Source of the DNA: Chloroflexales bacterium ZM16-3
GTDB lineage: Bacteria > Chloroflexota > Chloroflexia > Chloroflexales > Chloroflexaceae
Reading direction: 5' to 3'
Assembly (NCBI GenBank): GCA_004138175.2
Contig: RYFE02000004.1
Span: forward strand, 1-64,000
DNA: 64,000 nt
In this document: positions 2,340 to 49,203 of the stretch, one piece after another
How positions within the stretch are numbered: position 1 is the stretch's first letter
Layout of the letters: every line of letters begins with the position of its first letter
The notes under the pieces: model-generated
Databases searched by the model: none
Told to the model about the DNA's origin: nothing
Seen by the model: only the letters and a program-made list of their open reading frames with translations
Position numbers and translations under genes: made by a program

Positions 2340-2367
2340 GCAGATTGCAGATTGCAGATTGTAGATT
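2340..2367. repeat. Heptanucleotide tandem array (GCAGATT)4
   Basis: Four units of 7 bp (three GCAGATT, one GTAGATT) lie just upstream of the sensor kinase start. A weaker pair of 7-bp units of the CCCCTGT type follows at 2416-2429. See the finding on heptad arrays. Confidence 0.85.
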
Positions 2368-2438
2368 GGGCGCAGCGCATACTGATGTGCCAAATCTGGC
2401 AATCCACAATCTTGCCCCCTGTTTCCTGTCCCCTTATT

Positions 2439-3659
2439 TTAGCGCACCTTGCGTGGCTGCGTGGCATGCGAGAGCCTGAGCCATGCCGGGGTCGGGTCGG
2501 CCGGTCGCTTTGCCCGATGCTCCTCGCTGCTCAGCTGGAACGACCAGCGCTCTAGGATCGTGCCTAGCGGCTTGGTCGCCAGCTCTAACACTGGGGGCAC
2601 GCCGCGGTTCATCGCGCTCAGGTAGGGCTCGGCGGCGTAGGGCAGCGCCTGGGTGATCGGGCGTCGCAGGGCCGCCTCCATATCGCTGCGGGCCAGGCCG
2701 CCCTGCGCGACGGTGGTGTTGAGCAGCAGCGTGACCTTCGTGGCCGGGTAGTCCAGCTCGGCGAAGACATCGAGGGCGATGCTGGCGGCGCGCACGGAGG
2801 CGATCTCGGGTGCCAGCAAGAGCAGCACCTCGTCGGCGGCGTCGAGCCCGGCCAGGGTGGTCTCACTAAAGTCGTGGGGCAGATCGAGCACCACATACGC
2901 ATAGTGCTGGCGGAGCAGATCGAGGATATAGCGCACCTTCTCGCCGCTGATCAGCTCGCTCTGCTCGGCGCGCGCGGCGGCGGCCAGCACATGCACGCCG
3001 CTGCTATGGGTCATCAGCACCTGGTCGAGCAGATCGCCGTCGATATCGGCGATCGATAGATTGGCCAGGTCTCCCCAGGTGGTGCGCAGCGGCAGGTTAA
3101 GCATCAGGGCGCTCTGGCCGCTGATCAGCGCCAGGTCGACCAGGGCGACCGGCTCGCCCCAGATCTGTGCCAGCCCCACCGCGAGGTTGGTGGCCAGGGT
3201 TGAGACGCCGATCCCGCCGCGCAGCGAGAAGAGCGCGATCATCCGGCCCTGCGCGGCCAGCGGCTGCATCGGCGTTGGCGTGGCGCGGCGGAGCAGGGCG
3301 CGCACCCGTGCCTGGAGCTCGACCGGCTGGAAGGGCTTGCACATGTAGTCATCGGCACCGACCTCTAGGCCCCGCACCCGCTCCTCCAGCGTGTCATTGG
3401 CGGTGAGCATCATAATCGGGCGATGGGCGAAGGCGGGCATGCGCCGCAGACGGCGACAGACCTCGTAGCCGTTGATGTCCGGCATCATCACATCAAGGAT
3501 GATCAGGTCGGGCTGGAAGAGCATCGCGCGTTCGAGAGCGGTGTTTCCGTTCGGTGCGGTGTCGATCTCGTAGCCGTCGGGGCGCAGGGCGGCAGAGACC
3601 ATCTTTAGGTTGAGCGGCGTGTCATCAACTATCAGGATCCGGCTGGGTGAGGTTGTCAT
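2439..3659 (-). CDS. Response regulator fused to CpaE/TadZ-like atypical ParA ATPase
   Basis: 406 residues from ATG 3659 (GGAG six bases upstream); an earlier in-frame start at 3824 adds only low-complexity residues. Residues 1-125 are a complete receiver domain (ILIVDDT, phospho-Asp in LIILDVMMPD, Lys in MCKPF). Residues 140-370 resemble the MinD/ParA superfamily but the P-loop reads RGGIGVST, lacking the usual GK[ST] lysine, as is common in CpaE/TadZ proteins. CpaE and TadZ place Tad pili at the pole; no tad genes occur here, so the target is unknown. The start overlaps the end of the upstream cyclase gene by 35 bp, so the two are probably co-translated and act in one pathway. Confidence 0.85.
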   Translation of the reverse strand: MTTSPSRILIVDDTPLNLKMVSAALRPDGYEIDTAPNGNTALERAMLFQPDLIILDVMMPDINGYEVCRRLRRMPAFAHRPIMMLTANDTLEERVRGLEVGADDYMCKPFQPVELQARVRALLRRATPTPMQPLAAQGRMIALFSLRGGIGVSTLATNLAVGLAQIWGEPVALVDLALISGQSALMLNLPLRTTWGDLANLSIADIDGDLLDQVLMTHSSGVHVLAAAARAEQSELISGEKVRYILDLLRQHYAYVVLDLPHDFSETTLAGLDAADEVLLLLAPEIASVRAASIALDVFAELDYPATKVTLLLNTTVAQGGLARSDMEAALRRPITQALPYAAEPYLSAMNRGVPPVLELATKPLGTILERWSFQLSSEEHRAKRPADPTPAWLRLSHATQPRKVR

Positions 3660-5364
3660 AGGAGCCTCCATTGGCATCGCTATGGAATGACTGGGGTGAA
3701 GCGACGACATCCGGGCACGTCGCACAGATAATCTGGTTGCGCCCCGCGCCTTTGGCGGCGTAGAGCGCGGCGTCTGCTGCCGCGAGCAGCGTGTAGGAGT
3801 TGCTCTCTGGGGTGAGGCTGGCAACCCCGCCGCTGAATGTTACCATCACCTCGTCATTATTGCCGAGCAGGTGACCGATCGTGGCGAAGCGCGCGCGCGC
3901 GTCGTCGATCACCCGCAGCGCCGTCGACGCGTCGGTCTGCGGAAGGATGATCAGAAACTCCTCGCCGCCGTAGCGACCGATGCTGTCGCTCATGCGCAGC
4001 CGCTGATGCAGCAGCCGGGACAGCCCCTTCAGCACCCGGTCGCCGGCGGCGTGCCCGTAGCGGTCATTGATCTGCTTGAAGTGGTCGAGGTCGAGCATCG
4101 CGACGGTCAGCGCGGTGCCGTAGCGCTGCGCCCGCATGATCTCGCGCACCACCTGCTCTTTGATCGAGGCGTGGGTGAACAGGCCGGTGAGCCCATCGCG
4201 GCTCAGCAGGGCGCGCATGTCGCGGGCCCGGCGCGCCCGGCTCGTCACCGCCGACACCAGCTGCGATGCGCTGATCGGCTTGGTGAGAAAATCATCGCCG
4301 CCCTGGTCGAGCGCCGCCAGCTGGTGGTCGCGGTCGTGCTCGCCAGAGAGAAAGACGATCGGCAGGCTCACGAAGGCGTCCTGCTGACGGATGAGCGCGG
4401 CGACCTCGGGGCCGGTGCAGGCGGGCATATACATGTCGAGCAGCAGCAGGTCGGGCTGGAACTCCTGGAGCGCCTGCATCACATGGGTAGGGTCGGTCAG
4501 CGCCATCGTTCGCATGCCAGCGTTACGCAGCATCGCCTCGTAGAGCGCGCCGGTCAGCCGGGTGTCATCGACGATCAGGACGCGGTATGGCTCGGGGATG
4601 AAGGCACCGGTGATGCCGTCGAGCACGCTGACCAGGGCGTCAATATCGACCGGCTTGGTGAGGTATGCCTTGCCGCCTGCGCGCACGGCCCAGAGTCGGG
4701 CCATAAAGTCGCTGCGCTGCGAGAGGAAGATCACTGGCACGGCGACACCGGCGCGCGCGGTCGCCGCCATACGCTGCGGCCCTGCCAGGTCGCCCTCGGG
4801 GAAGACGATGTCGAGGATGATTACCGCCGGGTTATGGGAGCGTATCGACTCCTCGAAGTTGTCCAGAGTCTGGATGACGGCGGCGCGGTAGCCAAAGTGC
4901 TCAAGCTGGAGCGCCAGATGCTCGCCGGTGGCCGGGTCGTCCTCCACGATCAGCACGGCGGTCTGCCGCATCCCGCGCTCTGGCGCGGCGACGGGCTGGG
5001 CGATTTGAAGCACCCTGGTGTCGCCCGGAGTCTGGCGGGACGCCGTGATCAGGGCGGCGATGCAGTCATCGATCTTCGCGCGGGCCTCAGCTGATACCTC
5101 CGCCGGGCGGTCGGCGACGAGCTGTGCGAGGATCGCGTTGAGCTGATCGGCGGCTGCGCTTACCGCAGGCAGATCGAAGCTCGCCGCCGATCCGGATAGC
5201 GCGTGGGCCTTGGCGTACAGCGTGTCCAGCCGCTCCCATGACCAATCAATAGTGAGGGCATTCCAAAGCGCTGCGATCTCCTGGCCCCGCTCAACGAGGT
5301 GCTGCACGTATCGGTCGCGGATGGCATTGAGCTGCTGCTGGATGGATGGGGCTGGTGCTATCAT
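3625..5364 (-). CDS. Hpt-REC-REC-GGDEF diguanylate cyclase
   Basis: 579 residues, ATG with GGAG seven bases upstream. The N-terminus has an Hpt-like helix (KAHALSGSAASF, with a possible phospho-His). Two receivers follow: the first has VIILDIVFPEGD and LTKPVD, the second VLIVDDT, LLLLDMYMP and FLTKPIS. The C-terminal GGDEF domain has the active-site motif GRYGGEEF and an upstream RMSD that fits the RxxD inhibitory site, so it should make c-di-GMP and be product-inhibited. The double receiver before GGDEF recalls PleD, with an added Hpt module. It probably takes phosphate from the adjacent sensor kinase, which would make c-di-GMP output dependent on the sensor. Catalytic assignment is strong; the partner is inferred. 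Confidence 0.93.
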   Translation of the reverse strand: MIAPAPSIQQQLNAIRDRYVQHLVERGQEIAALWNALTIDWSWERLDTLYAKAHALSGSAASFDLPAVSAAADQLNAILAQLVADRPAEVSAEARAKIDDCIAALITASRQTPGDTRVLQIAQPVAAPERGMRQTAVLIVEDDPATGEHLALQLEHFGYRAAVIQTLDNFEESIRSHNPAVIILDIVFPEGDLAGPQRMAATARAGVAVPVIFLSQRSDFMARLWAVRAGGKAYLTKPVDIDALVSVLDGITGAFIPEPYRVLIVDDTRLTGALYEAMLRNAGMRTMALTDPTHVMQALQEFQPDLLLLDMYMPACTGPEVAALIRQQDAFVSLPIVFLSGEHDRDHQLAALDQGGDDFLTKPISASQLVSAVTSRARRARDMRALLSRDGLTGLFTHASIKEQVVREIMRAQRYGTALTVAMLDLDHFKQINDRYGHAAGDRVLKGLSRLLHQRLRMSDSIGRYGGEEFLIILPQTDASTALRVIDDARARFATIGHLLGNNDEVMVTFSGGVASLTPESNSYTLLAAADAALYAAKGAGRNQIICATCPDVVASPQSFHSDANGGSYDNLTQPDPDS

Positions 5365-6041: not shown

Positions 6042-6077
6042 AGAGAGATGATAATGTTCCGTACACTGAGGTGTGCT

Positions 6078-9000
6078 ATGAGCGATGATCTGCTCAGCTC
6101 GATGATCCTGGACTCACTCGAAGACTCTGTGGCGTTGCTGGACACAGACGGCACGATCATGCTGGTGAACGCGGCGTGGCGGCGCTTCGCCCAGGAGCAC
6201 GGCGACCAGAATCTTGCTTGTACTGGCCCTGGCGTGAACTACCTTGATGTGTGCCGCCAGGCCGCCGCCTCTGGCGATACGTCGGCGATCCGCATCCTTG
6301 ATGGCCTTCAGGCCATGCTTCAGGGCCACCAGCGCAGCTTGTATCTGGAGTACGGCTGCGATACCGCCGCTGGGTCGTGCTGGTACGCCCTGCGCGCCGT
6401 GCCGCTGTCCGCCGATGACCGGCGCGTCGTCGTCTCGCACGTGCATATCACCGACGCCAAGCGGACGATGATGCAGCAGGAGGAGATGCTGACAATCCTG
6501 TCGCGCGCCGAGGCCGTCGCCCATGTCGGCAGCTGGAAGTGGAACTTCGTCACCAACCAGGTTACGTGGTCGGATGAGATGTTTCGGATCTTCGGCCTGG
6601 ACCCGGCAAGCTTTGATGGCGATCTGGATGCGATCATTGCCCAGGCCATTCACCCAGACGACAGGGAGCGCGTTCAGGCTTCCAATGCGCACGTCCTGAA
6701 ACATCATGAGCCTGCCCCGCTACAGTACCGCATCCTCCGGCCGAGCGGCGAGGAGCGGGTCGTCTATGGGGATGGGCAGATTGTCCGCGATGCGGAGGGC
6801 CAGCCCACGGCGCTGCTCGGCAGCATCCACGACCGCACCGAGCTTGTGCGCGCGCAGGCCGCAGAGCTGATGGACGACCGGCGTCTGAGTGCGCTGTTTG
6901 AGCTGAGCGAGCGAGCCCACACCCTGAGCGAGTCCGAGATCATTCAGCTGGCGCTGGAGCATGCGGTCACGCTGACATCGAGCCAGATCGGCTATCTGCA
7001 CTTCATCAACATGGATCAGCTCACGATCCAGCTCTACACTTGGTCGCAGGAGACGCTGGCCCATTGCAGCGCGGTCTATGACTCGCACTATCCGGTCGAC
7101 CGGGCCGGGATCTGGGCCGACTGTGTGCGCGAGCGTCGGCCGGTCATCCACAACGATGACGCCCAGGCGGCGGGCTGGCGCGGGCTGCCTGCGGGCCACG
7201 CCCCGCTCTCGCGCCACCTGAGCGTGCCGGTGCTCGACGCGGACAACAAGGTGATGTTGGTGATCGGTGTGGGCAACAAGGCGCAGTTGTATGATGATGC
7301 CGATGCCCGCCAGGTTGGCCTGCTGGCCGACAGCATGTGGAAGATCGTGCAGCGCAAGCGCGCCGAGACGTGGCTGCGGCTCCAGGGCGCGGCGCTAGAG
7401 GCGGCAGGCACTCCGATGGTGATCGCCGACAAGGATGGGGCGATTGAGTGGGTGAATAGCGCATACACGCGGGTGACCGGGTACACCTTAGCGGAGGTCA
7501 TTGGCCAGAACCCGCGCTTCGTCAGGTCGGGCAATCACTCCGATGCCTTCTATGATCAGATATGGGACGCGATCAGCGCGGGGGAGGTCTGGCACGGCGA
7601 GGTTTCTACGCGGCGCAAGGATGGGCAGTTCTACGAGGAGGAGCAGGTGATCACGCCGGTGCGTAATGAGGCTGGGGAGATCACCCACTTTATCGCGATC
7701 AAGCAGGACATTAACGAACGGAAGCAGCGGGAGCGCGAACAGCTGTCCCGCGCCACGCTGAGTGCCGCGCTGGGATCTGCATCAAGTCGCGCCGATCTGG
7801 TGGCGGTCATCATCCGCCATGCTGGCGAGATCCTGGGCGCGGCTGGTATCGCCATTGCGAGCGTCCCGACCGAGGAGGGCCGGATCGCTGTCGAGATGGC
7901 CAGCGGCGAGTGGATCACCGTCACTGGGCAGCACTTCGATATAGCCTTGGGCTCGCCGATCATGGATGCGATGAGGCGCAACCGGCCCTGCTTCGGCACG
8001 GCGATCAGTGGCGGCGACAGCGGGCTGGTGCTGTCCGATCGCCTGCCGGTGATCGCCTGCGCCCCGCTGAGCGTCAGCCGCGACCCGTTCGGCTCCTTGC
8101 TGGTAGGCCGTGCGCTCCCTCTGAGCGCCCCCGAGCAGCGTCTGCTGTTCGTGATCACCGAGGTGGCGAGCAACGCGCTCAACCGTGCGACGCTCTACGA
8201 GGAGACCTCGCACCATCTGCGGCGGATGCAATCGCTGCATCATATCGATAAGGCGATCAGCGCAGGCGTTGAGATGGATATTGTGCTGAGCATTGTGCTC
8301 GATGAGCTGATCGCACACCTTGCGGTGGATGCCATCGCCGTCTTCCGCCAGCATCACACGCTCCCGACGCTGGATCGTGTCGCCACCCGGGGCTTTCTCC
8401 GCACCCCCGGCCCCCAGACCGTGCGCCTGGGCGAGACCTACGCCGGACAGGTTGCGCTGAGCCGTGCGCCGATCTACCGGCCAGATCTGTCTGTTCATGT
8501 AGACACCAACACAGGGGTGGCGCAGGCCGAGGGCTTCGGCATGTACTACGGCATCCCGCTGCTGGCGAAGGGGCAGATGAAGGGTGTACTGGAGCTCTAT
8601 ACCCGCAGGCCATTCCACGGCGCGGCCGACTGGCACGTCACGCTGGAGATGTTCGCCAGCCAGCTGGCGATCGCCCTCGAAAACGACGACATGATGGAGC
8701 GGCTCCAGCGCTCGCACCACGAGCTGATGCACGCCTATGAGGCGACGATCGAGGGCTGGTCGCGGGCGATGGACCTGCGCGATAAGGAGACCGAGGGCCA
8801 CACCCTGCGGGTGACGGAGATGGCGCTGCGCCTGGCCCGCGCGATGGGCGTCTCCGACGATGATCTCATCCACATCCGGCGCGGCGCGCTGCTGCACGAC
8901 ATCGGCAAGATGGGGGTGCCAGATCAGATCCTGCTCAAGCCGGGGCCGCTGACCGATGACGAGTGGGTGATCATGCGCATGCACCCGGTTTACGCCTACG

Positions 9001-9296
9001 AGATGCTGGCCCCGATCGCATTCCTTGAGCAGTCGCTCGCCATCCCCTACGGCCACCACGAGCGCTACGATGGCACCGGCTACCCGCGCAAGCTCAAGGG
9101 CGAGCAGATCCCGCTGGCCGCGCGGATCTTCGCCGTCGTCGATGTGTGGGACGCCCTGCGCTCCGACCGGCCCTACCGCGCGGGCTGGCCGGAGGATAAG
9201 GTGCGCGCCCATATTCGGGCGCAGGCGGGGACGCACTTCGACCCGCATGTTGCCGAGGTGTTCTTGCGGGTGCTCGGCGACCAGGATCGCGGGTGA
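6078..9296 (+). CDS. PAS/GAF sensor with HD-GYP c-di-GMP phosphodiesterase domain (paralogue 1)
   Basis: 1072 residues from ATG 6078, chosen because GAGG six bases upstream and the start context match the paralogue at 13401; an ATG at 6048 is also in frame. Domain order: PAS (1-110), PAS with PAC (about 130-250), GAF (about 270-440), PAS (about 450-570), two GAF-like domains (about 580-880) and HD-GYP (about 900-1065). The HD-GYP motifs are intact: LLHDIGKMG, then HHERYDGTGYP. This family hydrolyses c-di-GMP to GMP or pGpG. There are no membrane segments, so it is a cytosolic multi-input sensor. It is nearly collinear with the protein at 13401, which points to gene duplication. Confidence 0.93.
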   Translation: MSDDLLSSMILDSLEDSVALLDTDGTIMLVNAAWRRFAQEHGDQNLACTGPGVNYLDVCRQAAASGDTSAIRILDGLQAMLQGHQRSLYLEYGCDTAAGSCWYALRAVPLSADDRRVVVSHVHITDAKRTMMQQEEMLTILSRAEAVAHVGSWKWNFVTNQVTWSDEMFRIFGLDPASFDGDLDAIIAQAIHPDDRERVQASNAHVLKHHEPAPLQYRILRPSGEERVVYGDGQIVRDAEGQPTALLGSIHDRTELVRAQAAELMDDRRLSALFELSERAHTLSESEIIQLALEHAVTLTSSQIGYLHFINMDQLTIQLYTWSQETLAHCSAVYDSHYPVDRAGIWADCVRERRPVIHNDDAQAAGWRGLPAGHAPLSRHLSVPVLDADNKVMLVIGVGNKAQLYDDADARQVGLLADSMWKIVQRKRAETWLRLQGAALEAAGTPMVIADKDGAIEWVNSAYTRVTGYTLAEVIGQNPRFVRSGNHSDAFYDQIWDAISAGEVWHGEVSTRRKDGQFYEEEQVITPVRNEAGEITHFIAIKQDINERKQREREQLSRATLSAALGSASSRADLVAVIIRHAGEILGAAGIAIASVPTEEGRIAVEMASGEWITVTGQHFDIALGSPIMDAMRRNRPCFGTAISGGDSGLVLSDRLPVIACAPLSVSRDPFGSLLVGRALPLSAPEQRLLFVITEVASNALNRATLYEETSHHLRRMQSLHHIDKAISAGVEMDIVLSIVLDELIAHLAVDAIAVFRQHHTLPTLDRVATRGFLRTPGPQTVRLGETYAGQVALSRAPIYRPDLSVHVDTNTGVAQAEGFGMYYGIPLLAKGQMKGVLELYTRRPFHGAADWHVTLEMFASQLAIALENDDMMERLQRSHHELMHAYEATIEGWSRAMDLRDKETEGHTLRVTEMALRLARAMGVSDDDLIHIRRGALLHDIGKMGVPDQILLKPGPLTDDEWVIMRMHPVYAYEMLAPIAFLEQSLAIPYGHHERYDGTGYPRKLKGEQIPLAARIFAVVDVWDALRSDRPYRAGWPEDKVRAHIRAQAGTHFDPHVAEVFLRVLGDQDRG

Positions 9297-9342: not shown

Positions 9343-9409
9343 GACGAAGGACGAACGACCAACGACCAATCGTGCCGCTGCCTTCGTCGTTCGTCGTTCG
9401 TCCTTCGTC
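9343..9409. repeat. Inverted heptad array, 4 + 4 units
   Basis: Four 7-bp units of the GACGAAC/GACCAAC type (9343-9370), an 11-bp loop, then four inverted units of the GTTCGTC/CTTCGTC type (9382-9409). The right arm reaches the stop codon of the minus-strand cyclase. Lying between convergent genes, it may act as a transcription end hairpin. Confidence 0.85.
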
Positions 9410-13284: not shown

Positions 13285-13400
13285 GAGATGCTACGCTAGC
13301 TCCACTCTTCTGACTCTGCCGTTGTGCGTCTCGGATCATGCTGATCGCGTAGCCTGGGCTCTACGCTATGGGATCGCGATCTTTAGATCTGAGGTGCGCC

Positions 13401-16400
13401 ATGGGCGATGATCTGCTTAGCTCGATGATCCTCGACTCGCTGGAAGACTCCGTCGCCCTGCTCGATGCCGATGGTGTGATTGTGATGGTCAACGCGGCGT
13501 GGCGGCGCGTCGCAGAGCGTAATGGCGACCCGGATCTTAGCCGCACCGGCCCCGGCGTGAATTACCTGGACGTGTGCCGCCGGGCTGTCCGCTCGGGCGA
13601 TACCTCGGCGCTCCGCACCCTTGAGGGTCTCCAGGCGGTGCTTGATGGGCGGCAGCGTCGCTTTCACATGGAGTATTGCCTCGATACTGTCGATGAGCTG
13701 TGCTGGTATGAGCTACGCGCCGTGCCGCTGGCTGCGGATAGCCAGCGGGTGGTGGTCATCCACGAGAACATCTCCGAGCGCAAACAGGCCGAGGCCAAGC
13801 AGATCGAGACGATTGCGATCCTGTCTCAGGCAGAGGCGGTCGCCCATATCGGTAGCTGGAAGTGGGACTTCGCCACCAACCGGGTCACGTGGTCCGATGA
13901 GATGTACCGGATCTTCGGCATCGACCCGTCAGGATTCGACAACGACCTGGATGCAATTGTCGCCCAGGCCATCCACCCCGATGATCGGGAGCGCGTCGAG
14001 GCTTCCAATGCTCACGTCATCTCAGCCCACGAGGCCGCCCCGCTGGAGTACCGCATTCTCCGCCCAGACGGTGAGGAGCGGGTGGTCTACGGGAATGGGC
14101 ATGTCATCTGCGACGATACGGGGCAGCCGACTTCCATGCTCGGCAGCATCCATGATCGCACCGAGATTGTGCGCGCGCAGGCGGCCCTGCGGATGGATGA
14201 CCGACGCCTCAACGCGCTCTTTGAGCTGAGCGAGCGGGCCTACACGCTGAGCGAGCCGGAGATCATCCATCTGGCGCTGGAGCACGCCATCGCGCTCACA
14301 TCGAGCCAGATCGGCTACCTACGTTTTATCAACTCGGATCAGCTCACGCTCAAGCTCTACGCCTGGTCGCAGGCGACTCTAGAGGTGATCCCTGACGCCC
14401 GCTACCCGATGGACAGCGCCGATGTCTGGGCCGACTGTGTGCGGGCGAAGCGACCGATCACCCATAATACCTACCCTGTGGCAGAGGGGGAACATGAGCT
14501 GCCGGATGGCCACACCCCGCTGCTCCGCCATATGGGCGTGCCGGTGCTCGATGCCCAGTCCAAGGTGGTGCTGGTGATCGGGGTGGGGAATAAGCCCCAG
14601 GACTATGATACGACTGATGTGCGCCAGGTTCGCCTGCTTGGCGACAGCATGTGGAAGATCGTCCAGCGGAAGCGGGCCGAGTTGCGGCTGCGGCTCCAGA
14701 GCGTGGCGCTTGAGGCGGCGGCTAACCCGATGGTGATCACCGATAAGGATGGGACGATTGAGTGGGCGAACTCGGCCTATACGCGGCTGACCGGGTACAC
14801 GGCTGCGGATGCCATTGGCCAGAACCCGCGCCTGCTGAAGTCGGGCAAGCACCCCGAGTCGTTCTACGCCCAGATGTGGGCCACAATCTTGGCGGGGGAT
14901 GTCTGGCGCGGCGAGCTGATAAACCGGCGGAAGGGCGGGGCGCTCTACGACGAGGAGCAGACGATCACGCCGGTGCGCGACGAGGCCGGGCAGATCAGCC
15001 ACTTTATCGCGATCAAGCAGGATATCAGCGAGCGGAAGCAGTATGAGCGCGAGCAGCTGGCCCGCACCAGGCTGAGCGCCGCCCTGGGCGCGGTGTCCAC
15101 CCGCACCGAGATGGTGACGATCATCCTGGGCCAGGCATGCGATCTGATGGCGACGACCGATGTCGCGATGATCACCGTCTCCTCCAGCACCGGCCTGCTC
15201 AGAATCGAGCTGGCGGATGGCATCTGGCGTGAGACCACTGGGCAGCGTATGGACACGCAAGATGCGCGCATCCGCGAGGTGCTGCGCTACAATCAGCCAT
15301 GCTTCAACACCAGGCCCACCGCCAGCGACGGCGGTAGCGGCATGCTCGACAGCCACCCGGCGCTCGCCTGTGTCCCGCTGAGCGTCAGCAGCGCACCCTT
15401 CGCTGCCCTGATCGTGGGCCGCGAGCAGTCCTTTCAACGCTCCGAGCAGCGCCTGCTGCTCGCGATCATAGAGGTCGCGAGCAACGCCCTCCACCGCGCA
15501 ACGCTCTACGAGCAGACCACGCACCACTTGCGGCGGATGCAATCGCTCCACCGTATCGACAAGGCGATCAACGCAGGCGTCGAGATGGAGATCGTGATCG
15601 GCATTGTGCTTGATGAGCTGATCGCGCATCTCGCGGTGGACGCCATCGCCGTGTATCGTATGCACCAGACCCTCCCGACGCTGGATCGGGTCGCCACCCG
15701 GGGGCTTCGTCAGAGCATCGGCCACCAGACGATCCGCCTGGGCGAGACCTACACCGGGGAGATCGCGCTGAGCCGCTCGCCGATCTTCATCCCTAGCCTG
15801 GACGCATATACAACTGCGCACAGCGGGCTGTCGCCTGCGGAAGGCTTCGTCATGTACTATGGCGTCCCGCTGTTGGCGAAGGGACAGATGAAGGGGGTGC
15901 TTGAGGTCTTCACACGGGCACCATTCCACGGCGTACACGACTGGCATACGACCATGGAGCTCTTTACCAACCAGCTCGCGATCGCCCTCGACAACGCCGA
16001 TATGGTCGAGCGCCTCCAGCAGTCGCACCAAGAGCTGATGCACGCCTATGAGGCGACGATCGAGGGCTGGTCGCGGGCGCTGGATCTGCGCGATAAGGAG
16101 ACGGAGGGCCACACCCTGCGGGTGACGGACATGGTCATTCGTCTTGCGCGCGCGATGGGCGTCTCCGACGACGATCTGCTCCACATCCGGCGCGGCGCGC
16201 TGCTCCACGACATCGGCAAGATGGGGGTGCCGGATCAGATCCTGCTGAAGCCGGGGCCGCTGACGGATGAGGAGCGGGCGATCATGCGCATGCACCCGGT
16301 CTACGCCTATGAGATGCTGTCCCCGATCACATTTCTTGAGCAGTCGCTCACCATCCCCTACGGCCACCACGAGCGCTACGATGGCAGCGGCTACCCGCGC

Positions 16401-35067: not shown

Positions 35068-36201
35068 CTAGCGGATGCTCATCGGCATCACGATATGGAC
35101 GTAGCCCTCCTGGCCGACGGGCTTGAACACGCCGGGGCTCTGGGTCGTCTGAGTCTCCATAGCCACCTGGGCCGTCTTGATCGCGGCGAGAGCTTCGGCG
35201 AGGTACTTCACATTCAGAGCGATCTGGCCGCCCTCGCCGTGGATCATGCCATCGATCTCACCCGTGTTGTCGCCCACCTCGGCGGCATTGGCGCTGATCA
35301 CCACGCGGCCGGGGCCGAGCTCGCCGCCCGGCTCGATGGTGAGCTTGACCACATTCTGGCTGGAGTTGGCGAAGTAGGAGGCCAGCTTGACGGCCTTAGC
35401 CAGCTCGGCGGTGTCGAGCACGGTGCGGGTGAGGTACTGGGCGGGGATGATCCGCTCGAAGTCGGGGAACTTGCCATCGATCAGGCGCGAGACCAGCTCG
35501 GTGTTATCGGTATGAAAGAGCGCCTGGCTGCCGCCGGGGGTGATTGTCATCGCAATATTGCCCTCGCTATCGGCGGCGATGCGGGACAGCTCGATCAGCG
35601 ATCGGGCGGGGACGATGAACTCCTGGGGCTGCTCCACCGGCTCAGACAGCTGGATGACGCGGGTGGCCAGGCGGAATCCATCAGCGGCGGCGAAGGTGGC
35701 TCGGTTATCACGCAGGCGCACCAGGACACCGGCCAGCACCGGGCGCGAGTCATCGCTGGCGGCGGCGAAGGCCACCTGGTCGATCGCCTCACGCAATGCC
35801 GACGGGGCGAGGCTCACCGTCGGCTCGCGGTCGCTCACCGTGGGGATGGAGGGAAACTCCTCGGCCTCGATGCCCTTAATATTGCTGGTGAAGCGGGCGC
35901 ACTCGACCTTGACCGTCTGGGTGCGCGAGTCAAGCGTCAGGGTGACGCGATCATTCGGCAGGCCGCCGATCACATCGGCCAGAAGCTTGGCGGGCACCGT
36001 GATCGCGCCCTCTTCCTGCACCTGTGCGCCGATCCAGTGGGTGATGCCAACATCCAGGTTTGTGGCGGCCAGCTTTAGCCGCCCGCCATCGGTGGCAAGC
36101 AGAACATTCGAGAGAACCGGCAGGGTGCTCTTGCCGGCCACAGCGTGGCTCACCGTGGCAAGGCCGCGCTTGAGGTTCTCTTGGAGACATGTCAGCTTCA
36201 T
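35068..36201 (-). CDS. dnaN: DNA polymerase III beta clamp
   Basis: 377 residues from ATG 36201 with AGGAG upstream; a longer frame upstream is non-conserved. The sliding clamp tethers DNA polymerase III to the template as a dimer ring. Sequence marks: MKLTCLQENLKRGLATVSHA, GKSTLPVLSNVLL, DSRPVLAGVLVRL, AADGFRLATR, and the C-terminal VHIVMPMSIR, which forms part of the partner-binding pocket. Length matches the family. dnaA, recF and gyrB, its usual neighbours, are absent, and I saw no DnaA-box cluster, so this is not an obvious replication origin. Confidence 0.97.
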   Translation of the reverse strand: MKLTCLQENLKRGLATVSHAVAGKSTLPVLSNVLLATDGGRLKLAATNLDVGITHWIGAQVQEEGAITVPAKLLADVIGGLPNDRVTLTLDSRTQTVKVECARFTSNIKGIEAEEFPSIPTVSDREPTVSLAPSALREAIDQVAFAAASDDSRPVLAGVLVRLRDNRATFAAADGFRLATRVIQLSEPVEQPQEFIVPARSLIELSRIAADSEGNIAMTITPGGSQALFHTDNTELVSRLIDGKFPDFERIIPAQYLTRTVLDTAELAKAVKLASYFANSSQNVVKLTIEPGGELGPGRVVISANAAEVGDNTGEIDGMIHGEGGQIALNVKYLAEALAAIKTAQVAMETQTTQSPGVFKPVGQEGYVHIVMPMSIR

Positions 36202-37731: not shown

Positions 37732-39309
37732 ATGACAACAAGCGGTGCCCAGGATCGGCAGGTCGTGCTAGAGGCGCGCGGGATCACCAAGCGCTTCCCC
37801 GGCGTAATCGCGAACAATAATGTCTCGCTGAAGCTGCACAAGGGCGAGGTGCTGGCTCTGCTCGGCGAAAACGGGGCCGGCAAGAGCACCCTGATGAACA
37901 TCCTCTACGGGCTGTACCACCAGGATGAGGGCGAGATCCTGGTGAACGGCGCGCCGATCCGGGCCAACAGCCCCCACGAGTCTATCGAGCGTGGGATCGG
38001 CATGGTCCACCAGCACTTCCAGCTTGTGCCGGTGATGACCGTTGCCGAGAATGTGATGCTTGGCAACGAGATTACCCGTGGCAGATTCTTTCTCGACCGG
38101 CGGCGGGCCGCACAGCAGATCACGGAGATCTCGCGTCGCTACGGCCTGGAGGTTGAGCCGAACGCCCTGATCGCCGACCTGCCGGTGGGCGCCCAGCAGC
38201 GCGTGGAGATCATTAAGGCGCTCTATCGCAACGCCGATATTCTCATCCTCGACGAGCCAACCGCCGTGCTCACGCCCCAGGAGGCCGACGACCTGGTGCG
38301 AATTATGCGCACCCTGGTGGATCAGGGCACGTCGCTGATCTTCATCACCCACAAGCTGCGCGAGGTGCTGGAGATCGCCGACCGGATCATCGTGCTGCGC
38401 GGCGGAAAGGTGATGGGCGAGGCGCTGCCCGCAGAGTCGTCGGAGGCGAGCCTGGCGGCGATGATGGTGGGCCGCGATGTGATCCTCCAGGTAGACAAGG
38501 ACGCCGCCCAGCCCGCCGAGACGGTGCTTGAGGTGCGCGGCCTGTACGTGCGCGACGACCGCAGCCTGCCGGCAGTCAGCGGGGTTGACTTACAGGTGCG
38601 GGCCGGCGAGATCCTGGGCATCGCCGGGGTGCAGGGCAACGGCCAGACGGAGCTGGTGGCGGCGATCACCGGCCTGCGGAATAAAGAGGCTGGCACGGTG
38701 CTGGTGGTCGGCCAGGATGTGAGCCTGGCCACTCCCCGCCAGATCAGCGAGCTTGGCGTGGCCCACATCCCCGAGGATCGCCAACGCGAGGGGCTGATCA
38801 CGTCCTATGAGCTGACCGACAACTCGGTGCTTGAGCTGTACTACCGCAAGCCCTTCGCCAACGGGATCATCCGCGACGAGGAGCAGATCGACGCACACTG
38901 CACACGGCTGGTGGAGGAGTTCGATGTGCGCACGCCGAGCATCCACGTGCCGGCCAGCTCGCTCAGCGGAGGCAACCAGCAGAAGCTGATCGTAGCCCGC
39001 GAGTTCAGCCAGCCGATCAAGCTGCTGATCGCGGCCCAGCCTACCCGTGGGATCGATGTCGGCTCGATTGAGTTCATCCATAACCAGATCATCAAGAAGC
39101 GTGACGAGGGCGTGGCGGTGCTGGTGGTCTCGGCCGAGCTCGACGAGGTGCTGGCGCTCTCCGACCGGATCGCGGTGATGTACCACGGCAAGATCGTCGC
39201 CACGGTGAATAATAGCGAGGTGACCCGCGAGGATCTGGGGCTGCTGATGGCTGGGGCGGGGCCCCAGGGGTTGGGGGTTAGGAGTTGGGAGTTGGGAGTT
39301 GGGGGTTAG
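37732..39309 (+). CDS. ABC transporter double ATPase, nucleoside/sugar (BMP) type
   Basis: 525 residues from ATG 37732 (AGAGG upstream). Two ABC domains: the first with GENGAGKST, LPVGAQQRVEI and LILDEPTAVLTPQE; the second with GVQGNGQTE and LSGGNQQKLIVAREFS. The PTRGIDVGSIEFIH stretch and spacing match the ATPase of YufO/NupO-type nucleoside importers. The last 20 or so residues (GLGVRSWELGVGG) are encoded by a heptad repeat array that the reading frame enters, so the natural C-terminus probably ended near MAGAGP. The permease gene follows after the array. Confidence 0.93.
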   Translation: MTTSGAQDRQVVLEARGITKRFPGVIANNNVSLKLHKGEVLALLGENGAGKSTLMNILYGLYHQDEGEILVNGAPIRANSPHESIERGIGMVHQHFQLVPVMTVAENVMLGNEITRGRFFLDRRRAAQQITEISRRYGLEVEPNALIADLPVGAQQRVEIIKALYRNADILILDEPTAVLTPQEADDLVRIMRTLVDQGTSLIFITHKLREVLEIADRIIVLRGGKVMGEALPAESSEASLAAMMVGRDVILQVDKDAAQPAETVLEVRGLYVRDDRSLPAVSGVDLQVRAGEILGIAGVQGNGQTELVAAITGLRNKEAGTVLVVGQDVSLATPRQISELGVAHIPEDRQREGLITSYELTDNSVLELYYRKPFANGIIRDEEQIDAHCTRLVEEFDVRTPSIHVPASSLSGGNQQKLIVAREFSQPIKLLIAAQPTRGIDVGSIEFIHNQIIKKRDEGVAVLVVSAELDEVLALSDRIAVMYHGKIVATVNNSEVTREDLGLLMAGAGPQGLGVRSWELGVGG

Positions 39310-39397
39310 GAGTTGGGAGTTGGGGGTTAGGAGTTGGGGGTTAGGAGTTAGGGGTTGGGGGTTGGGGAGCCATTGGCCCCAACCCCCAACCCCCAAC
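39267..39397. repeat. Large heptad array, 14 + 3 inverted units
   Basis: Fourteen 7-bp units of the GGGGTTG / GGGGTTA / GGAGTTG types (39267-39364), a 12-bp loop, then three inverted CCCCAAC units (39377-39397). The first six units lie inside the ATPase reading frame. The largest array in the window. Confidence 0.9.
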
Positions 39398-39415
39398 CCC
39401 CATGGAGCACACAGA

Positions 39416-40551: not shown

Positions 40552-40579
40552 GATTGTAGATTGCCGATTGCCGATTGCC
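40552..40579. repeat. Heptad array (GATTGCC)3 plus GATTGTA
   Basis: Four 7-bp units two bases after the permease stop codon; no inverted arm beyond a weak ATCTGTG. Confidence 0.8.
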
Positions 40580-40603: not shown

Positions 40604-41089
40604 ATGAGCGACGCAGCGAGCGAGCGACCCATGCGGGAGGCCGACGAGGAGCGCGTGGCCGATATCATCCTGCCGCACCAGACAAACGGCTTCGGCACGA
40701 TGTTCGGCGGTGATGTGATGGCCCTGATGGATAAGGCTGCGGCGATCTCCGCGCTGCGCTTCTGCCGCCAGCCGGTTGTCACCGCCTCCACCGAGCGGAT
40801 TGACTTCCGCACGCCGATTGGCCAGGGCGAGATCGTCGAGGCATACGCGAAGGTGATCTACGTTGGCCGCACCTCGATGGTGGTGCGCGTGCGCGTGTTC
40901 GCCGAGCACCCCCTGCGCGGCGACCGGCGGGTCTGCACGACGGGCTACTTCAGCATGGTGGCAATCTCGCGCGAGGGCGGCAGACCAGGGCCGGTGCCCG
41001 ATCTGCTCCTCCCAGACGACGAAGCCCGCGCCGAGCAGGTTGTGGGCGAGGAGATCCATCTGTTGATCGCCGCACGGCGGCAACGCTGA
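40604..41089 (+). CDS. Acyl-CoA thioesterase, hot-dog fold (YciA/BFIT type)
   Basis: 161 residues from ATG 40604 (GGAG upstream). Hot-dog motif LPHQTNGFGTMFGGDVMALMDKAAAISA, then TASTERIDFRTPIGQGE, typical of acyl-CoA hydrolases of the YciA family. It splits acyl-CoA to free acid and CoA in the cytosol and works as a multimer. Its stop codon TGA is the first three bases of the next heptad array. No lipid genes are adjacent; the location downstream of the transporter looks incidental. Confidence 0.92.
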   Translation: MSDAASERPMREADEERVADIILPHQTNGFGTMFGGDVMALMDKAAAISALRFCRQPVVTASTERIDFRTPIGQGEIVEAYAKVIYVGRTSMVVRVRVFAEHPLRGDRRVCTTGYFSMVAISREGGRPGPVPDLLLPDDEARAEQVVGEEIHLLIAARRQR

Positions 41090-41184
41090 GTGTTGAGTGT
41101 TGAGTGTTGAGTGTTGAGTGTTAAAGGTTCTAGAGGGAACAGAGGTGTAGTGCGCCATTCAACATTCAATATTCAACATTCAAC
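41087..41184. repeat. Heptad array overlapping two genes
   Basis: Five TGAGTGT units (41087-41121), beginning with the thioesterase stop codon, then four ATTCAAC-type units in inverted sense (41157-41184), which lie inside the signal-peptide coding region of the next gene. Confidence 0.85.
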
Positions 41185-42025
41185 ATTTTGCTTGCTCTTG
41201 GCATCCTGCGGGCTCCTGCTGATGAGCTGCGGGCACCCTGCGGCGAGCCGACCGAGCCCGCCCATCCCGGTGGCGACGCTGATGCCCACGCCCACCGGCC
41301 CGCCCCTGTCCACCGAGGCGCCCGCCGAGCAGCCTGCCGACAGCGGCTGGATCACTACCTCGCCTGGGGCCGAGCTACGCCGCCTGCGGATCGATCTCGG
41401 CGGCGGCATCTCGGCCCAGCTGCGCGTGGTGCGGCTCGACCCGGCGCAGGTGCAATTCCAGGTGGGATACGCGCCTGAAAGCCCGCGCTCGATCTCGCGC
41501 TGGGCGCGGGAAGGCGGTGCGCTTGCGGCGATCAACGGGGGCTTCTTCGACGAGCAGAACCGCACGGTGTCGCTGCTGATCATTGGCGGGCAGGCCGTCG
41601 GGGAGAGCTACAGCGGGCGGGGCGGGATGTTCTCGGTGGCCCAGGACGGCGCGCTGCGTCTGCGCGGCCTAGCCGACGCGCCCTACGACCCGGCTGAGCC
41701 GCTGGCCGAGGCGCTCCAGGGCTGGCCGCTGCTGATGCAGCCCGGCGGGGCGACGGCCTATAGCTTTGAGGATGGCGAGCGGGCGCGGCGCAGCGCCCTA
41801 GCGATTGATCGCGCGGGGCGGGTGCTGTTGATCGCCAGCCCGAACGCCTCCTTCACCCTGGCCGGACTGGCGGCGTGGCTGGCCAGCTCGGATCTGGAGA
41901 TCGACGCGGCGGTCAACCTCGACGGCGGTTCATCCACCGGCCTGATCCTCACCGGGGGCTCGGCCAGCGAGCAGGTTGAGGCATTTGTGCCGCTGCCGAT
42001 TGTGCTGCTGGCGCTGCCGAGATAG
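41150..42025 (+). CDS. Phosphodiester glycosidase (NAGPA-like) lipoprotein
   Basis: About 291 residues if GTG 41150 is used (AGAGG just upstream); an in-frame GTG at 41111 inside the heptad array is the other choice. The N-terminus has basic and hydrophobic residues and a lipobox LMSC, so it is probably exported and lipidated. The domain (about 70-290) shows AAINGGFFDEQNR, LMQPGGATAYS, RRSALAIDRAGRVLLI and AAVNLDGGSSTGLIL, hallmarks of the NAGPA / phosphodiester glycosidase family, which removes GlcNAc-type caps. Part of the signal peptide is translated heptad repeat (HSTFNIQHSTF), which makes the exact start uncertain. Confidence 0.85.
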   Translation: MRHSTFNIQHSTFCLLLASCGLLLMSCGHPAASRPSPPIPVATLMPTPTGPPLSTEAPAEQPADSGWITTSPGAELRRLRIDLGGGISAQLRVVRLDPAQVQFQVGYAPESPRSISRWAREGGALAAINGGFFDEQNRTVSLLIIGGQAVGESYSGRGGMFSVAQDGALRLRGLADAPYDPAEPLAEALQGWPLLMQPGGATAYSFEDGERARRSALAIDRAGRVLLIASPNASFTLAGLAAWLASSDLEIDAAVNLDGGSSTGLILTGGSASEQVEAFVPLPIVLLALPR

Positions 42026-42084
42026 GGGGTTAGGGGTTAGGGGTTGGGGGTTGGCTCCAACCCCCAACCCCCAACCCCCAACCC
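42026..42084. repeat. Heptad hairpin, 4 + 4 units
   Basis: Four GGGGTTA/GGGGTTG units (42026-42053), a three-base loop and four inverted CCAACCC units (42057-42084) between the convergent glycosidase and arginase genes. Could act as a bidirectional terminator. Confidence 0.85.
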
Positions 42085-42088
42085 CCAC

Positions 42089-43005: not shown

Positions 43006-43065
43006 GATTGCAGATTGCAGATTGCAGATTTGGCGTAGCAATCTGCAATCTGCAATCTGCAATCA
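43006..43065. repeat. Heptad hairpin GATTGCA / GCAATCT
   Basis: Three and a half GATTGCA units (43006-43030), a seven-base loop, then four inverted GCAATCT/GCAATCA units (43038-43065), between arginase and the Get3-like gene. Confidence 0.88.
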
Positions 43066-46851: not shown

Positions 46852-46902
46852 GAATGTTGAATGTTGAATGTTGAATGTGAGCATTCAACATTCAACATTC
46901 AA
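46852..46902. repeat. Heptad hairpin GAATGTT / CATTCAA
   Basis: Four GAATGTT-type units (46852-46879), a two-base loop, and three inverted CATTCAA units plus part of a fourth, between lipA and hemW and ending 8 bp before the hemW ATG. Confidence 0.88.
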
Positions 46903-46910
46903 CATTGGAC

Positions 46911-48116
46911 ATGAAGCACCTCTATATCCACATCCCCTTCTGCCACCGCAGATGCGCCTACTGCGACTTCAACACCTACGCCAACATGGACGACCGCATC
47001 GAGGCGTATGTGGTTGCCCTCTGCGCAGAGTTGCGTCTGCTGGCGGAGACGGTTGTGCCCGCGCCACCGACCTCGGCCGACGCCGCATCGCTGCCCCCAA
47101 CCATTTTTCTTGGCGGCGGGACGCCCACGATGCTCTCGCTCGATCAGATGGGCCGGGTGCTTGATGCGGCAAGCGCGATCGTGCCCCTGGAGGGCGCTGA
47201 GGTCAGCAGTGAGGCCAATCCTGGCACCGTCCTCGGGCGCGACTACCTACGCGGCCTGCGGCAGCTCGGCGTCAACCGGCTGAGCATGGGCGTGCAGAGC
47301 CTGCACGACCCGACCTTGCGCATGCTCGGGCGTATCCACACCGCCGATGAGGCCACAAGGAGCTATGTGGAGGCCCGCGAGGCTGGCTTCGATAACATCA
47401 ACCTCGACTTCATCTTCGGCATGCCCGGCCAGAGCCATGCCCAGTGGGAGGCCACCCTGGACGAGATCGTCACCTGGGAGGTCGATCACTTCTCTCTCTA
47501 CTCACTCATCCTAGAGGAGCAGACCCCGCTCTTCGCCCAGGTCACGGCTGGACGGGTCAGCCTGCCAGATGACGACGCCACCGCCGCGATGTACGAGGCG
47601 GCCATGGATCGCTTCGCCGCTGCCGGCTATGTCCAGTACGAGATCTCAAACTTCGCACGTGGAGATGTTCTCAGGGAGAGCACCGCTCTCCCTGAGATAC
47701 CCTCTCGCGCTTGCGCCCACAACCTGGCCTACTGGCTCAACAGCGACTACATCGCCGCCGGGGCCGGAGCCTACGGCCATATCACCGCTGGCGGCTCGCC
47801 CCATCGCTACTACGACATTCTCGCGGTAGAAGGCTACATCGCCGCCGCAGGCTCGGGCGGCCGCCCTCTGGCTGAGACGATCCCGCTCAGCGCGGCGGAC
47901 ATCCGGGCCGAGACCATGATGATGGGCCTGCGGCTGAATGTTGGTGTGAGCGAAGACCACTTTGCAGGTCGCTGCGGGGCACGCCTTGAGGAGGTGTACG
48001 GCGAGCAGATCGCCGAGCTAGTCACGCAGGGCCTGATCGAGCGCGCAGACGGCAGGGTACGGCTCACCCTCCGCGGGCGCATGCTTGGCAACCAGGTGTT
48101 TCTGCGGTTCTTGTAG
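46911..48116 (+). CDS. hemW: HemW-like radical SAM protein (heme chaperone)
   Basis: 401 residues from ATG 46911; a TTG two codons earlier is the alternative. The radical-SAM motif is CHRRCAYCDF (CxxxCxxC). FLGGGTPTML, GVNRLSMGVQSLHDPTLRML and the C-terminal winged-helix-like tail match HemW, formerly annotated as oxygen-independent coproporphyrinogen oxidase. HemW binds and transfers heme, for example to respiratory enzymes, which fits the cytochrome operon directly downstream. No Shine-Dalgarno is visible because the heptad hairpin occupies the upstream space. Confidence 0.9.
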   Translation: MKHLYIHIPFCHRRCAYCDFNTYANMDDRIEAYVVALCAELRLLAETVVPAPPTSADAASLPPTIFLGGGTPTMLSLDQMGRVLDAASAIVPLEGAEVSSEANPGTVLGRDYLRGLRQLGVNRLSMGVQSLHDPTLRMLGRIHTADEATRSYVEAREAGFDNINLDFIFGMPGQSHAQWEATLDEIVTWEVDHFSLYSLILEEQTPLFAQVTAGRVSLPDDDATAAMYEAAMDRFAAAGYVQYEISNFARGDVLRESTALPEIPSRACAHNLAYWLNSDYIAAGAGAYGHITAGGSPHRYYDILAVEGYIAAAGSGGRPLAETIPLSAADIRAETMMMGLRLNVGVSEDHFAGRCGARLEEVYGEQIAELVTQGLIERADGRVRLTLRGRMLGNQVFLRFL

Positions 48117-48136
48117 GGGTTGGGGGTTGGGGGTTG
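48116..48136. repeat. Heptad array (GGGGTTG)3
   Basis: Three units starting at the last base of the hemW stop codon. The rest of the 358-bp gap to actA holds only the act promoter; no other ORF or RNA was recognised. Confidence 0.75.
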
Positions 48137-48398
48137 GGATGCGGTGCCGACTTCAATACATCGATGGCAATGATCTCTCTCGGCCATTGTTCAGGTTGTC
48201 ACAACACCCTGTACCATACGATTGCCAAGGTAATGCACCGCTTCTCGCACAAGGTGTGCCAGCACATGAGCAGCCTATGCACGTGAAAGCTTTGCATAAT
48301 ATGCAAATCCCGACAACGTAGCCGAATAATAATTTGTTCGGGAAGGTGCTTTATATTGCATTCGGGCGAGCTTTATTGGTCATCACATTGGTATTTGG

Positions 48399-48474: not shown

Positions 48475-49137
48475 ATGGGTCAGATCTTCCCCCGTAACGC
48501 GAATCTGCTCATTCGTCTGAGCATTTTTGCAAGCCTGCTCCTTGCCGTCGAGCTGACGCTTATTCTAGGCGTCTACTTTCGGTCGAACTACTTCCGCCAG
48601 ATCAACGTCGCGGTGCAGCAGCCAGTCCCGTACAGCCACCAGCTCCATGTTGGCGTGCTTGGCATGGACTGTCGCTACTGTCATGTTGCTGTGGACAAGT
48701 CGTGGGCTGCGAACATCCCGGCCACAGAGACATGCATGACCTGCCACTCGCAGATCAAGTCGGACAGCCCAAAGCTGACACTAGTTCGTGAGAGCTACGC
48801 CACCGGTCAGCCGGTCGACTGGATTCGTATCCACAAAGTGCCCGACTTCGTCTACTTCAACCACTCGATCCACGTCAACAAGGGCATCGGTTGTTCCGAA
48901 TGCCACGGGCAGGTGGATACGATGGCTGTGGTCTGGCAAGTTCAACCGCTGTACATGGGCTTCTGCCTGAACTGTCATCGTAACCCAGAGAAGTACATCC
49001 GGCCGCGCGACGAGGTCTACAATATGGGCTACGTGCATCCGGCGGATCAGCTTCAGGTCGGCGCTGATCTTGTCAAGCAGTATGGCGTGAACAACGACAA
49101 GAATCAGCTCACTAACTGCTCTATCTGCCACCGCTAG
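48475..49137 (+). CDS. actA: Alternative complex III pentaheme cytochrome ActA
   Basis: 220 residues. Residues 9-32 form one membrane helix (LLIRLSIFASLLLAVELTLI), which anchors a domain outside the cytoplasm. Five CxxCH heme motifs are present: CRYCH (from residue 66), CMTCH, CSECH, CLNCH and CSICH at the C-terminus. In alternative complex III (ACIII) this subunit carries electrons out of the quinol-oxidising core. The GAGG directly abuts the ATG, so initiation may be weak or use AGAAAG further up. First gene of a seven-gene operon. Confidence 0.95.
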   Translation: MGQIFPRNANLLIRLSIFASLLLAVELTLILGVYFRSNYFRQINVAVQQPVPYSHQLHVGVLGMDCRYCHVAVDKSWAANIPATETCMTCHSQIKSDSPKLTLVRESYATGQPVDWIRIHKVPDFVYFNHSIHVNKGIGCSECHGQVDTMAVVWQVQPLYMGFCLNCHRNPEKYIRPRDEVYNMGYVHPADQLQVGADLVKQYGVNNDKNQLTNCSICHR

Positions 49138-49175
49138 TGTGTTGAGATGTGGTGCCTGATGTGTGCGCCTCGCAC

Positions 49176-49203
49176 GGCATCAGGCATCAGGCATCAGGCA
49201 TCA
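49176..49203. repeat. Heptad array (GGCATCA)4 between actA and actB
   Basis: Four GGCATCA units between the actA stop and the actB ATG, a position in the operon mRNA where a ribosome site would lie. The preceding GTGCCTGATG is a partial inverted copy. Confidence 0.85.

Follow-up and report, generated by a model that had tools for sequence, protein, structure and literature searches.

Arrays of direct repeats with an exact period of 7 bp lie between the genes of the window analysed here, a stretch of 64,000 nucleotides at the start of contig RYFE02000004.1 from Chloroflexales bacterium ZM16-3, a filamentous green bacterium of the genus Oscillochloris (Chloroflexota). Many of them face an inverted array, and their units have the period and not the sequence in common, which raises the question of what kind of element they are and how they come to occupy their sites. 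The short tandemly repeated repetitive (STRR) sequences of cyanobacteria are likewise intergenic, with a period of 7 and lineage-specific units, and a preliminary description of the window, made from the sequence alone, proposed an equivalent system in this lineage, often arranged as hairpins. That proposal is borne out by the period, the unit families and the arrangement; it did not mention that the arm richer in purines usually leads, that the content of a given site can be exchanged or that some copies lie within genes. We give an even chance to the reading that the arrays are short dispersed hairpin satellites, acting at the DNA level, which grow or shrink by multiples of 7 bp and can take each other's place where a hairpin already stands.

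The genome of the window (G000; 6.27 Mb in 127 contigs) was compared with those of five congeners (G001 to G005), of members of two other genera (G007 and G016) and of a member of another family of the phylum Chloroflexota (G188). Over the alignable DNA of the window, identity was 86% with G004, 81% with G003, 78% with G005 and 74% with G002.

Period, inverted arrangement and polarity of the arrays

Tandem Repeats Finder returned a period-7 array at each of the 13 coordinates listed in the preliminary description (13/13). Exact arrays (at least 2.5 copies and at least 20 bp) were counted with periods of 3–15 in the window and in 360 kb of contig C1, and with periods of 4–12 in the comparison of several genomes (464 kb of G000 and samples of G004, G005, G007 and G188). 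Period 7 accounted for 21 of the 22 exact arrays of the window and for 67 of the 77 of contig C1, and one first-order Markov copy of each contained 0 arrays. The same period was found in 97/104 exact arrays of the 464 kb of G000, 64/74 in G004, 81/93 in G007, 25/28 in G188 and 21/24 in G005; contigs C1–C10 of G016 (L170–L179; a 56-kb sample) had period 7 in 10 of 20 arrays and period 8 in 9, and 100 kb of Escherichia coli K-12 held zero heptamer arrays. The excess of 7 bp over other periods, which the preliminary description had named as the check to make, is present both in the window and in the sampled G000 DNA, and the existence of several unit families with a common period was confirmed. 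Its claim that most intergenic spacers carry arrays did not hold: with a simple open reading frame (ORF) caller applied to 7% of the genome, the basis of our gene and spacer statistics, only 50 of 206 spacers of 25–500 bp did so, though the arrays are dense at 34–49 kb. Its statement that an inverted array, across a loop of 2–12 bp, follows most of them held in part: seven of the 13 clusters (at 9343, 25450, 39267, 41087, 42026, 43006 and 46852) have an inverted partner array, that at 25450 holding a second, nested pair, while in the remaining six any partner is short or degraded; the gaps between inverted arrays are 2, 3, 7, 9, 13, 13 (nested), 33 and 128 bp. The window contains the following elements:

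2336–2368: GATTGCA array, 4.7 copies; degraded downstream partner with a 13-bp stem (2356–2368 with 2400–2412)
9343–9409: GACGAAC array (9343–9369) and inverted TTCGTCG array (9383–9409); 13-bp gap, purine arm first; DNA fold z -6.5
18463–18503: AGATTGG array, 5.9 copies, without inverted partner array; aligned G004 flanks contiguous, an empty site
25450–25619: nested pairs, GATTGCA (25450–25470) with CTACAAT (25599–25619) enclosing CGACGAA (25521–25541) with TTGGTCG (25555–25595)
34998–35068: CCCCTGT arrays (34998–35042 and 35040–35068); sole inverted partner of 9 bp, upstream
39267–39402: GGGGTTG array (39267–39367; 14.4 copies, mixed variants) and inverted CCCCAAC array (39377–39402); 9-bp gap; another palindrome in G004
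40552–40579: GATTGCC array, 4.0 copies; partner not clear
41087–41187: TGAGTGT array (41087–41122) and inverted CATTCAA array (41156–41187); 33-bp gap, units differing by one letter
42026–42087: GGGGTTA array (42026–42054) and inverted CCAACCC array (42057–42087); 2-bp gap, between convergent genes; DNA fold z -6.6
43006–43064: GATTGCA array (43006–43030) and inverted GCAATCT array (43038–43064); 7-bp gap; other palindromes in G004; DNA fold z -10.1
46852–46906: GAATGTT array (46852–46878) and inverted CATTCAA array (46882–46906); 3-bp gap, filling the lipA-hemW spacer; DNA fold z -9.9
47670–47696: in-frame palindrome, not a heptamer, in the hemW-like gene; heptamer hairpin at the same place in G004
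48116–48138: GGGGTTG array, 3.3 copies, beginning in the stop codon of the hemW-like gene; without partner
49176–49203: GGCATCA array, 4.0 copies; one inverted partner unit upstream

Six stretches of the window were folded as single-stranded DNA, and five of them scored better than every one of 200 shuffled versions (z -3.5 to -10.1); the stretch 49160–49210, from which the upstream partner unit was left out, folded no better than its shuffles (z 0.25). Neighbouring arrays of the same family are mostly inverted relative to each other in G000 and G004 taken together (79 inverted, 7 direct), with 17 inverted and 10 direct in G007, 16 and 2 in G188, 5 and 1 in G005, and 5 and 5 at other loci; no inverted pair was found in the 56 kb of G016.

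These inverted pairs share a polarity. In 112 of 122 pairs, drawn from six sets and many unit families, the purine-rich arm precedes the other (43/47 in G000, 32/32 in G004, 16/16 in G188, 5/5 in G005, 14/17 in G007 and 2/5 at other loci). Because a palindrome is identical from both strands, neither the direction of genes nor that of replication can set the order of the arms. Among pairs without GGG in G000, G004 and G188 (gaps of at most 60 bp), 66 of 69 are purine-first, in 19 of 21 families, and so are all 26 wide pairs of G000 and G004 (gaps of 25–260 bp), a list that holds overlapping pairs. Searching 400 Chloroflexota genomes for GATTGCA hairpins, and counting overlapping occurrences and not loci, we found the purine-first order in 16 genomes (112 occurrences in G000, 303 in G004, 34 in G188, 18 in G001, 5 in G003 and 1 or 2 in eleven others) and the reverse order in two (2 in G004 and 1 in G391); of the controls, one gave zero throughout and the other 1 match per direction in one genome. 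Palindromes that are not heptamers, scored with a cut-off of 12, are also mostly purine-first (49 versus 14 pyrimidine-first in G000, 65 versus 13 in G004, 17 versus 6 in G002 and 12 versus 3 in G003, ties excluded), although these counts include dispersed families and are hence not independent. The sole heptamer palindrome of G002 is pyrimidine-first and two of G003 are ties. Nine palindromes from other phyla were purine-first in three cases versus six, and the 14 intergenic inverted repeats of the E. coli K-12 sample, small and scored with a laxer cut-off of 10, comprised 5 purine-first, 8 pyrimidine-first and 1 tied. As a candidate for a feature common to the units, the trinucleotide RTT/AAY occurs in 52% of 106 families versus 23% of intergenic 7-mers, but it does not stand out, TGA/TCA and TTG/CAA being enriched nearly as much. 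The order of variant units is mirrored between the arms in G188, where mirroring is perfect in 6 of the 11 pairs that could be used versus 2.3 expected (p<0.001); a first test on 30 pairs of G000 and G004 gave p=0.056.

Genes often end close to an array: among the 109 gene 3′ ends that have one ahead of them, 70 come to within 10 bp or run slightly into it. Read away from the closest gene edge, 33 of 43 single arrays are purine-rich, a count that set aside 27 arrays within ORFs, 12 with one side missing and 8 that were ambiguous; in the sense of a facing stop codon, single arrays have no purine bias (29 versus 28). Heptamer arrays occur at similar rates in convergent (10/41), tandem (33/128) and divergent (7/37) spacers; for palindromes of any kind the figures are 28/41, 49/128 and 11/37, with 0/206 in shuffled spacers. 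Four ORF starts of the window, at 39299, 40550, 41111 and 43072 (minus), run into arrays, which yields N-terminal artefacts made of LGVRSWE, IADCRLQ and HSTFNIQ repeats. Repeat peptides of these kinds are familiar from predicted proteins of other sources.

Persistence and exchange of content at orthologous sites

The spacer between lipA and hemW illustrates how such sites change among congeners. GAATGTT pairs occupy it in both G000 and G004, with about one unit more per arm in G004, while G001 has other heptamer families, G003 a degraded palindrome and G002 no heptamer array. The spacer at 25448 is nearly empty in G002 and contains unrelated palindromes in G003 and G004; its segment 25440–25620 had no match among plasmids. 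More generally, an orthologous G004 spacer was found for 88 of 214 G000 spacers, and an array or palindrome (single arrays without a partner included) was present in both species in 42, in G000 only in 11, in G004 only in 8 and in neither in 27 (p=2e-7; by spacer length class, p = 0.054, 0.011 and 0.00016). The content of the sites in the two species was as follows:

G000 spacers with a heptamer array: in G004, heptamer 12, other palindrome 7, none 4
G000 spacers with another palindrome: in G004, heptamer 7, other palindrome 16, none 7
G000 spacers without either: in G004, heptamer 2, other palindrome 6, none 27

When the eight sites with similar units were excluded, 11 of 15 G000 heptamer sites kept an array or palindrome in G004 versus 8 of 35 sites empty in G000 (p=0.0013). 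These comparisons indicate that divergence in place and replacement both occur.

The sites of exchange extend into genes. The hemW-like gene, whose product has Radical_SAM and HemN_C domains, carries the palindrome 47670–47696 in its open frame; at this site a more degraded similar sequence is found in G001, G003 and G005, G002 is shorter, and G004 has an in-frame heptamer hairpin. With this one, four genes have exchanged a heptamer array and another palindrome in frame between species. In the other three the length difference is a multiple of three, and the exchange affects a biotin-carboxylase-type protein (inner palindrome score 18), the HATPase_c domain of an ammonium-transporter/histidine-kinase hybrid (score 18) and the region behind the MgsA_C domain of an AAA ATPase (score 11). 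In a CO-dehydrogenase-like protein, two positions carry heptamer units in each of the two species, but the units differ; the linker of a dihydrolipoamide acyltransferase contains an array. Among the other arrays within ORFs, several lack an ortholog in the DNA compared, two aligned ones have a length difference that is not a multiple of three, and some of the host ORFs are probably not genes. In-frame palindromic elements are also found in Rickettsia. In G004 the match to the hemW-like gene is split between opposite strands, its parts some 38 kb from each other (G004:C128:213700-214677 and 175797-175922), seemingly through an inversion or a misassembly.

Copy number had been predicted to vary. 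An orthologous place was found for 43 of 84 G000 clusters. Of the nine orthologous loci listed whose units are identical or one letter apart, six vary in copy number between species (46851, 148101, 200686, 202831, 219628 and 312053) and three do not (49175, 64633 and 179722). Slippage in steps of 7 bp, suggested in the preliminary description, would fit these differences. The GGCATCA array at 49176 is unlike the other arrays in that about four units and an inverted partner unit are found in all four congeners compared (G002, G003, G004 and G005). Its flanking genes presumably belong to an alternative complex III operon (actA-actB), and it may be a recruited, functional copy.

Two further observations concern the surroundings of the arrays. 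The matches of the window at 17.8 kb and at 45.9–48.1 kb adjoin in opposite orientation in G002 and G003, so that the segment 17.8–45.9 kb is apparently inverted between species, and the ORFs at 6048–9296 (1082 aa) and 13368–16589 (1073 aa), with closely similar beginnings, look like neighbouring paralogues.

Spread of unit families and explanations considered

Unit families have spread in a lineage-specific manner. Triplets of GATTGCA number 522 in G004, 144 in G000, 107 in G005, 26 in G001, 6 in G003 and 0 in G002, and in the other genera 205 in G016 and 108 in G007; in 31 genomes, triplets of GAATGTT number 44 in G000, 109 in G004, 0 in the other four congeners, 4 in G021 and 0 elsewhere. 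Control counts for both units were all zero; for GGGGTTG, the reversed-unit control is uninformative because the reversed unit is a rotation of itself. The occurrence of one unit at many loci requires copying between loci, and in G188 several loci combine similar arm sequences with different loops. A Y1 transposase or a reverse transcriptase as the agent was rejected, since neither follows the repeat content: G004, the richest genome, has 0 matches to Y1_Tnp (PF01797) in a draft of 98% completeness, and reverse transcriptases have 3 matches in G002, where GATTGCA triplets are absent, and 0 in G007. Loss of the SbcCD hairpin nuclease was likewise rejected, with an SbcD match in 31 of 31 genomes. 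The flanks of 89 pairs contain no target motif, and their base frequencies reveal no fixed tetranucleotide such as the GTAG/CGTC hallmark of REP elements mobilized by RAYT transposases, for which no direct search was made. A repeat of about 120 bp (L040:4083-4202) matches many places in G002, G003 and G004 among the matches listed.

According to the satellite reading, a typical element would consist of two degenerate arms of 7-bp repeats in opposite orientation, the purine-rich arm first and the loop short or filled. Most elements would lie in spacers, many of them directly at a stop codon, and some would be read in frame as part of protein loops that tolerate them. Arm length would change in 7-bp steps, probably by slippage given the differences between species, and the arms may come to share one unit by copying from arm to arm or by copying of whole hairpins. 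Template switching between the arms, another suggestion of the preliminary description, is directly supported in one genome, by the mirrored unit order of G188. Unit families spread through a genome by lineage, and the two-species comparison shows that the array or palindrome at a given position can be replaced by one of different sequence. Such replacement would most likely be a DNA-level event at an extruded hairpin, either because the loop receives an insertion and the old arms are lost afterwards or through template switching. A possible intermediate is the inverted repeat found inside the loop of 7 of 26 wide pairs, pairs that overlap one another and in which two inner repeats are themselves heptamers. 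A dispersed palindrome starting approximately with TGTCA(C/T)(C/T)CTGAGCGAAGCGAAG lies between both heptamer arms in three genomes (G000:C1:50462-50686, G004:C1 at about 231.4 kb and the lipA-hemW spacer of G001:C172). Most copies would be neutral or selfish, and a few recruited. We propose only tentatively, and consider rather improbable, the more specific process of a hairpin exchange at the DNA level that uses existing palindromes in and between genes as swap sites for hairpins of unrelated sequence, mainly purine-first, without a dedicated Y1 transposase or reverse transcriptase. In that process, extrusion of hairpins while they are transcribed could be what sets off the exchange, as R-loops are favoured in both directions when the first arm is purine-rich.

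Several points weigh against replacement of hairpins as outlined here. The persistence counts admit single arrays without a partner, and the overlap and heptameric nature of some inner repeats reduce the value of the wide pairs as intermediates. Where both species have arrays, 8 of 12 sites have the same or a one-letter-different unit versus 12% expected at random (p=1e-5), and divergence in place therefore explains part of the change. Ten of the 122 pairs are exceptions to the purine-first order, which the conserved GGCATCA element also breaks, being pyrimidine-first in G002, and mirrored unit order is not significant outside G188 (p=0.10 in G000, p=0.29 in G004 and p=0.37 in G005 and G007). 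Neither a target duplication nor a target motif nor an agent was found, Y1 transposases and reverse transcriptases being the agents searched. Furthermore, the repeats of Xanthomonas are reported to be mostly retained between two species, in surroundings more stable than controls (PMC4692102).

Selection at gene ends for a hairpin of any sequence, serving as a bidirectional terminator or as a stabilizer of mRNA ends, would explain why a hairpin is kept at a site while its content changes, why so many array-facing 3′ ends lie close to an array and why palindromes are commonest in convergent spacers. Given the purine-first order, a transcript entering from either side would also have a second arm dominated by pyrimidines, and pyrimidine-rich RNA forms a weak hybrid with DNA. 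In Xanthomonas citri, transcripts are reported to start or stop at quadruplex-capable heptamers more often than at controls (PMC4692102). However, heptamer arrays themselves are not enriched in convergent spacers, no T-run follows the hairpins (T is 10–27% at each of 14 positions past the second arm of 89 pairs), and arm mismatches in the sense RNA of heptamer hairpins in tandem spacers have no excess of G.U (38) over A.C (48). Maintenance of pairing at the RNA level was rejected on these numbers and on those of other hairpins (57 versus 45), neither being significant. Exchange in frame within genes also means that termination is not the general reason for the hairpins; those within genes cannot be terminators, which says nothing against termination at other hairpins. 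We consider this explanation unlikely as a whole. We think it equally improbable that the arrays are miniature transposons moved by an enzyme outside the families searched. Lineage-specific spread to many loci, the similar arms with different loops in G188 and the absent or empty sites of relatives are all to be expected of such elements, but a direct repeat of at least 6 in the 14-bp flanks occurs in 5 of 89 pairs versus 1.7% in permutations, with array ends that are blurred, the flanks have no motif, and Y1_Tnp and reverse transcriptases, the families searched, do not follow the repeats.

A protein reading repeats spaced by 7 bp could account for the constant period and for the array kept at four units in five species; the many unrelated units within one genome make binding sites of this kind a very unlikely general explanation. 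Still less credible is a role as quadruplex elements, the interpretation given to the G-rich heptamers known from Xanthomonas and Nostoc: the GGGGTTG, GGGAGTC and GGGGACA families are common, but 69 of 89 pairs lack GGG and 66 of these 69 have the same polarity, so that the quadruplex was rejected as the common feature.

Relation to known repeats and significance

Across many prokaryotes, heptamers are reported as the commonest periodic repeat of intergenic DNA, without any hint of what they do (PMC6344855), and the period of 7 nt has been proposed to reflect polymerase contact (Mrazek 2007, as reported in PMC4679880). Single G-rich families of Xanthomonas and Nostoc (GGGAATC and GGGGA(C/T)T) were interpreted in terms of quadruplexes (Rehm 2015, PMC4692102); they are mostly intergenic, near stop codons on the sense strand and near start codons on the antisense strand, with 70 and 75 cases of two convergent repeats in Xanthomonas and few pairs in Nostoc (PMC4692102). 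We read the convergent pairs of Xanthomonas, as far as they are described there, as purine-first. The arrays studied here resemble these heptamers in unit length, in their intergenic location near stops and, for Xanthomonas, in their inverted pairs, but differ in having many families, in that most pairs lack GGG and in their exchange with unrelated palindromes. They share a period of 7, an intergenic location and lineage-specific units with the heptamer long simple-sequence repeats, which are described as direct repeats (PMC4679880) whereas here they are often inverted. The TAACTGA repeats of marine Beggiatoaceae are similarly dispersed intergenic 7-mers that related species may lack at the same spacer, but form 169 direct sets and one indirect set of a single unit (PMC4679880). 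Within the same bacterial order by our own classification, the (GATAGRA)n satellites of Chloroflexus aurantiacus are derived from a heptamer and comprise 22 satellites of one unit, with no hairpin arrangement described in the cited passages of PMC6749651. REP and RPE palindromes are also dispersed in spacers and genes (PMC3733652); they have defined palindrome sequences instead of 7-bp arrays, and GTAG REPs go with RAYT transposases (PMC3733652), whose distribution does not follow the repeats studied here.

Intergenic heptamers near stops with a strand preference (Xanthomonas, Nostoc), inverted pairs (Xanthomonas) and a heptamer satellite (Chloroflexus) are hence already known. What the present data contribute further is one polarity across many families, exchange of content at kept sites, exchange in frame, and spread by lineage without a link to Y1 transposases or reverse transcriptases. 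Among the papers listed in searches of the open-licence literature, we found none on a polarity rule across heptamer families, on hairpin exchange at fixed positions or on Oscillochloris heptamers, which is weak evidence of absence. Because many families stand side by side here, and repeat-rich and repeat-poor members of the genus have alignable flanks, this system allows period, polarity and exchange to be examined independently of a particular sequence. The results weaken the quadruplex and terminator explanations, and the hairpin repeats give a handle on the commonness of 7-letter repeats in bacteria. Such DNA also turns into peptide, through wrong gene starts in the window and through in-frame insertions in some conserved proteins. 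If the exchange process proposed above were true, the heptamer repeats of bacteria would be its slippage product and not ordinary simple-sequence repeats.

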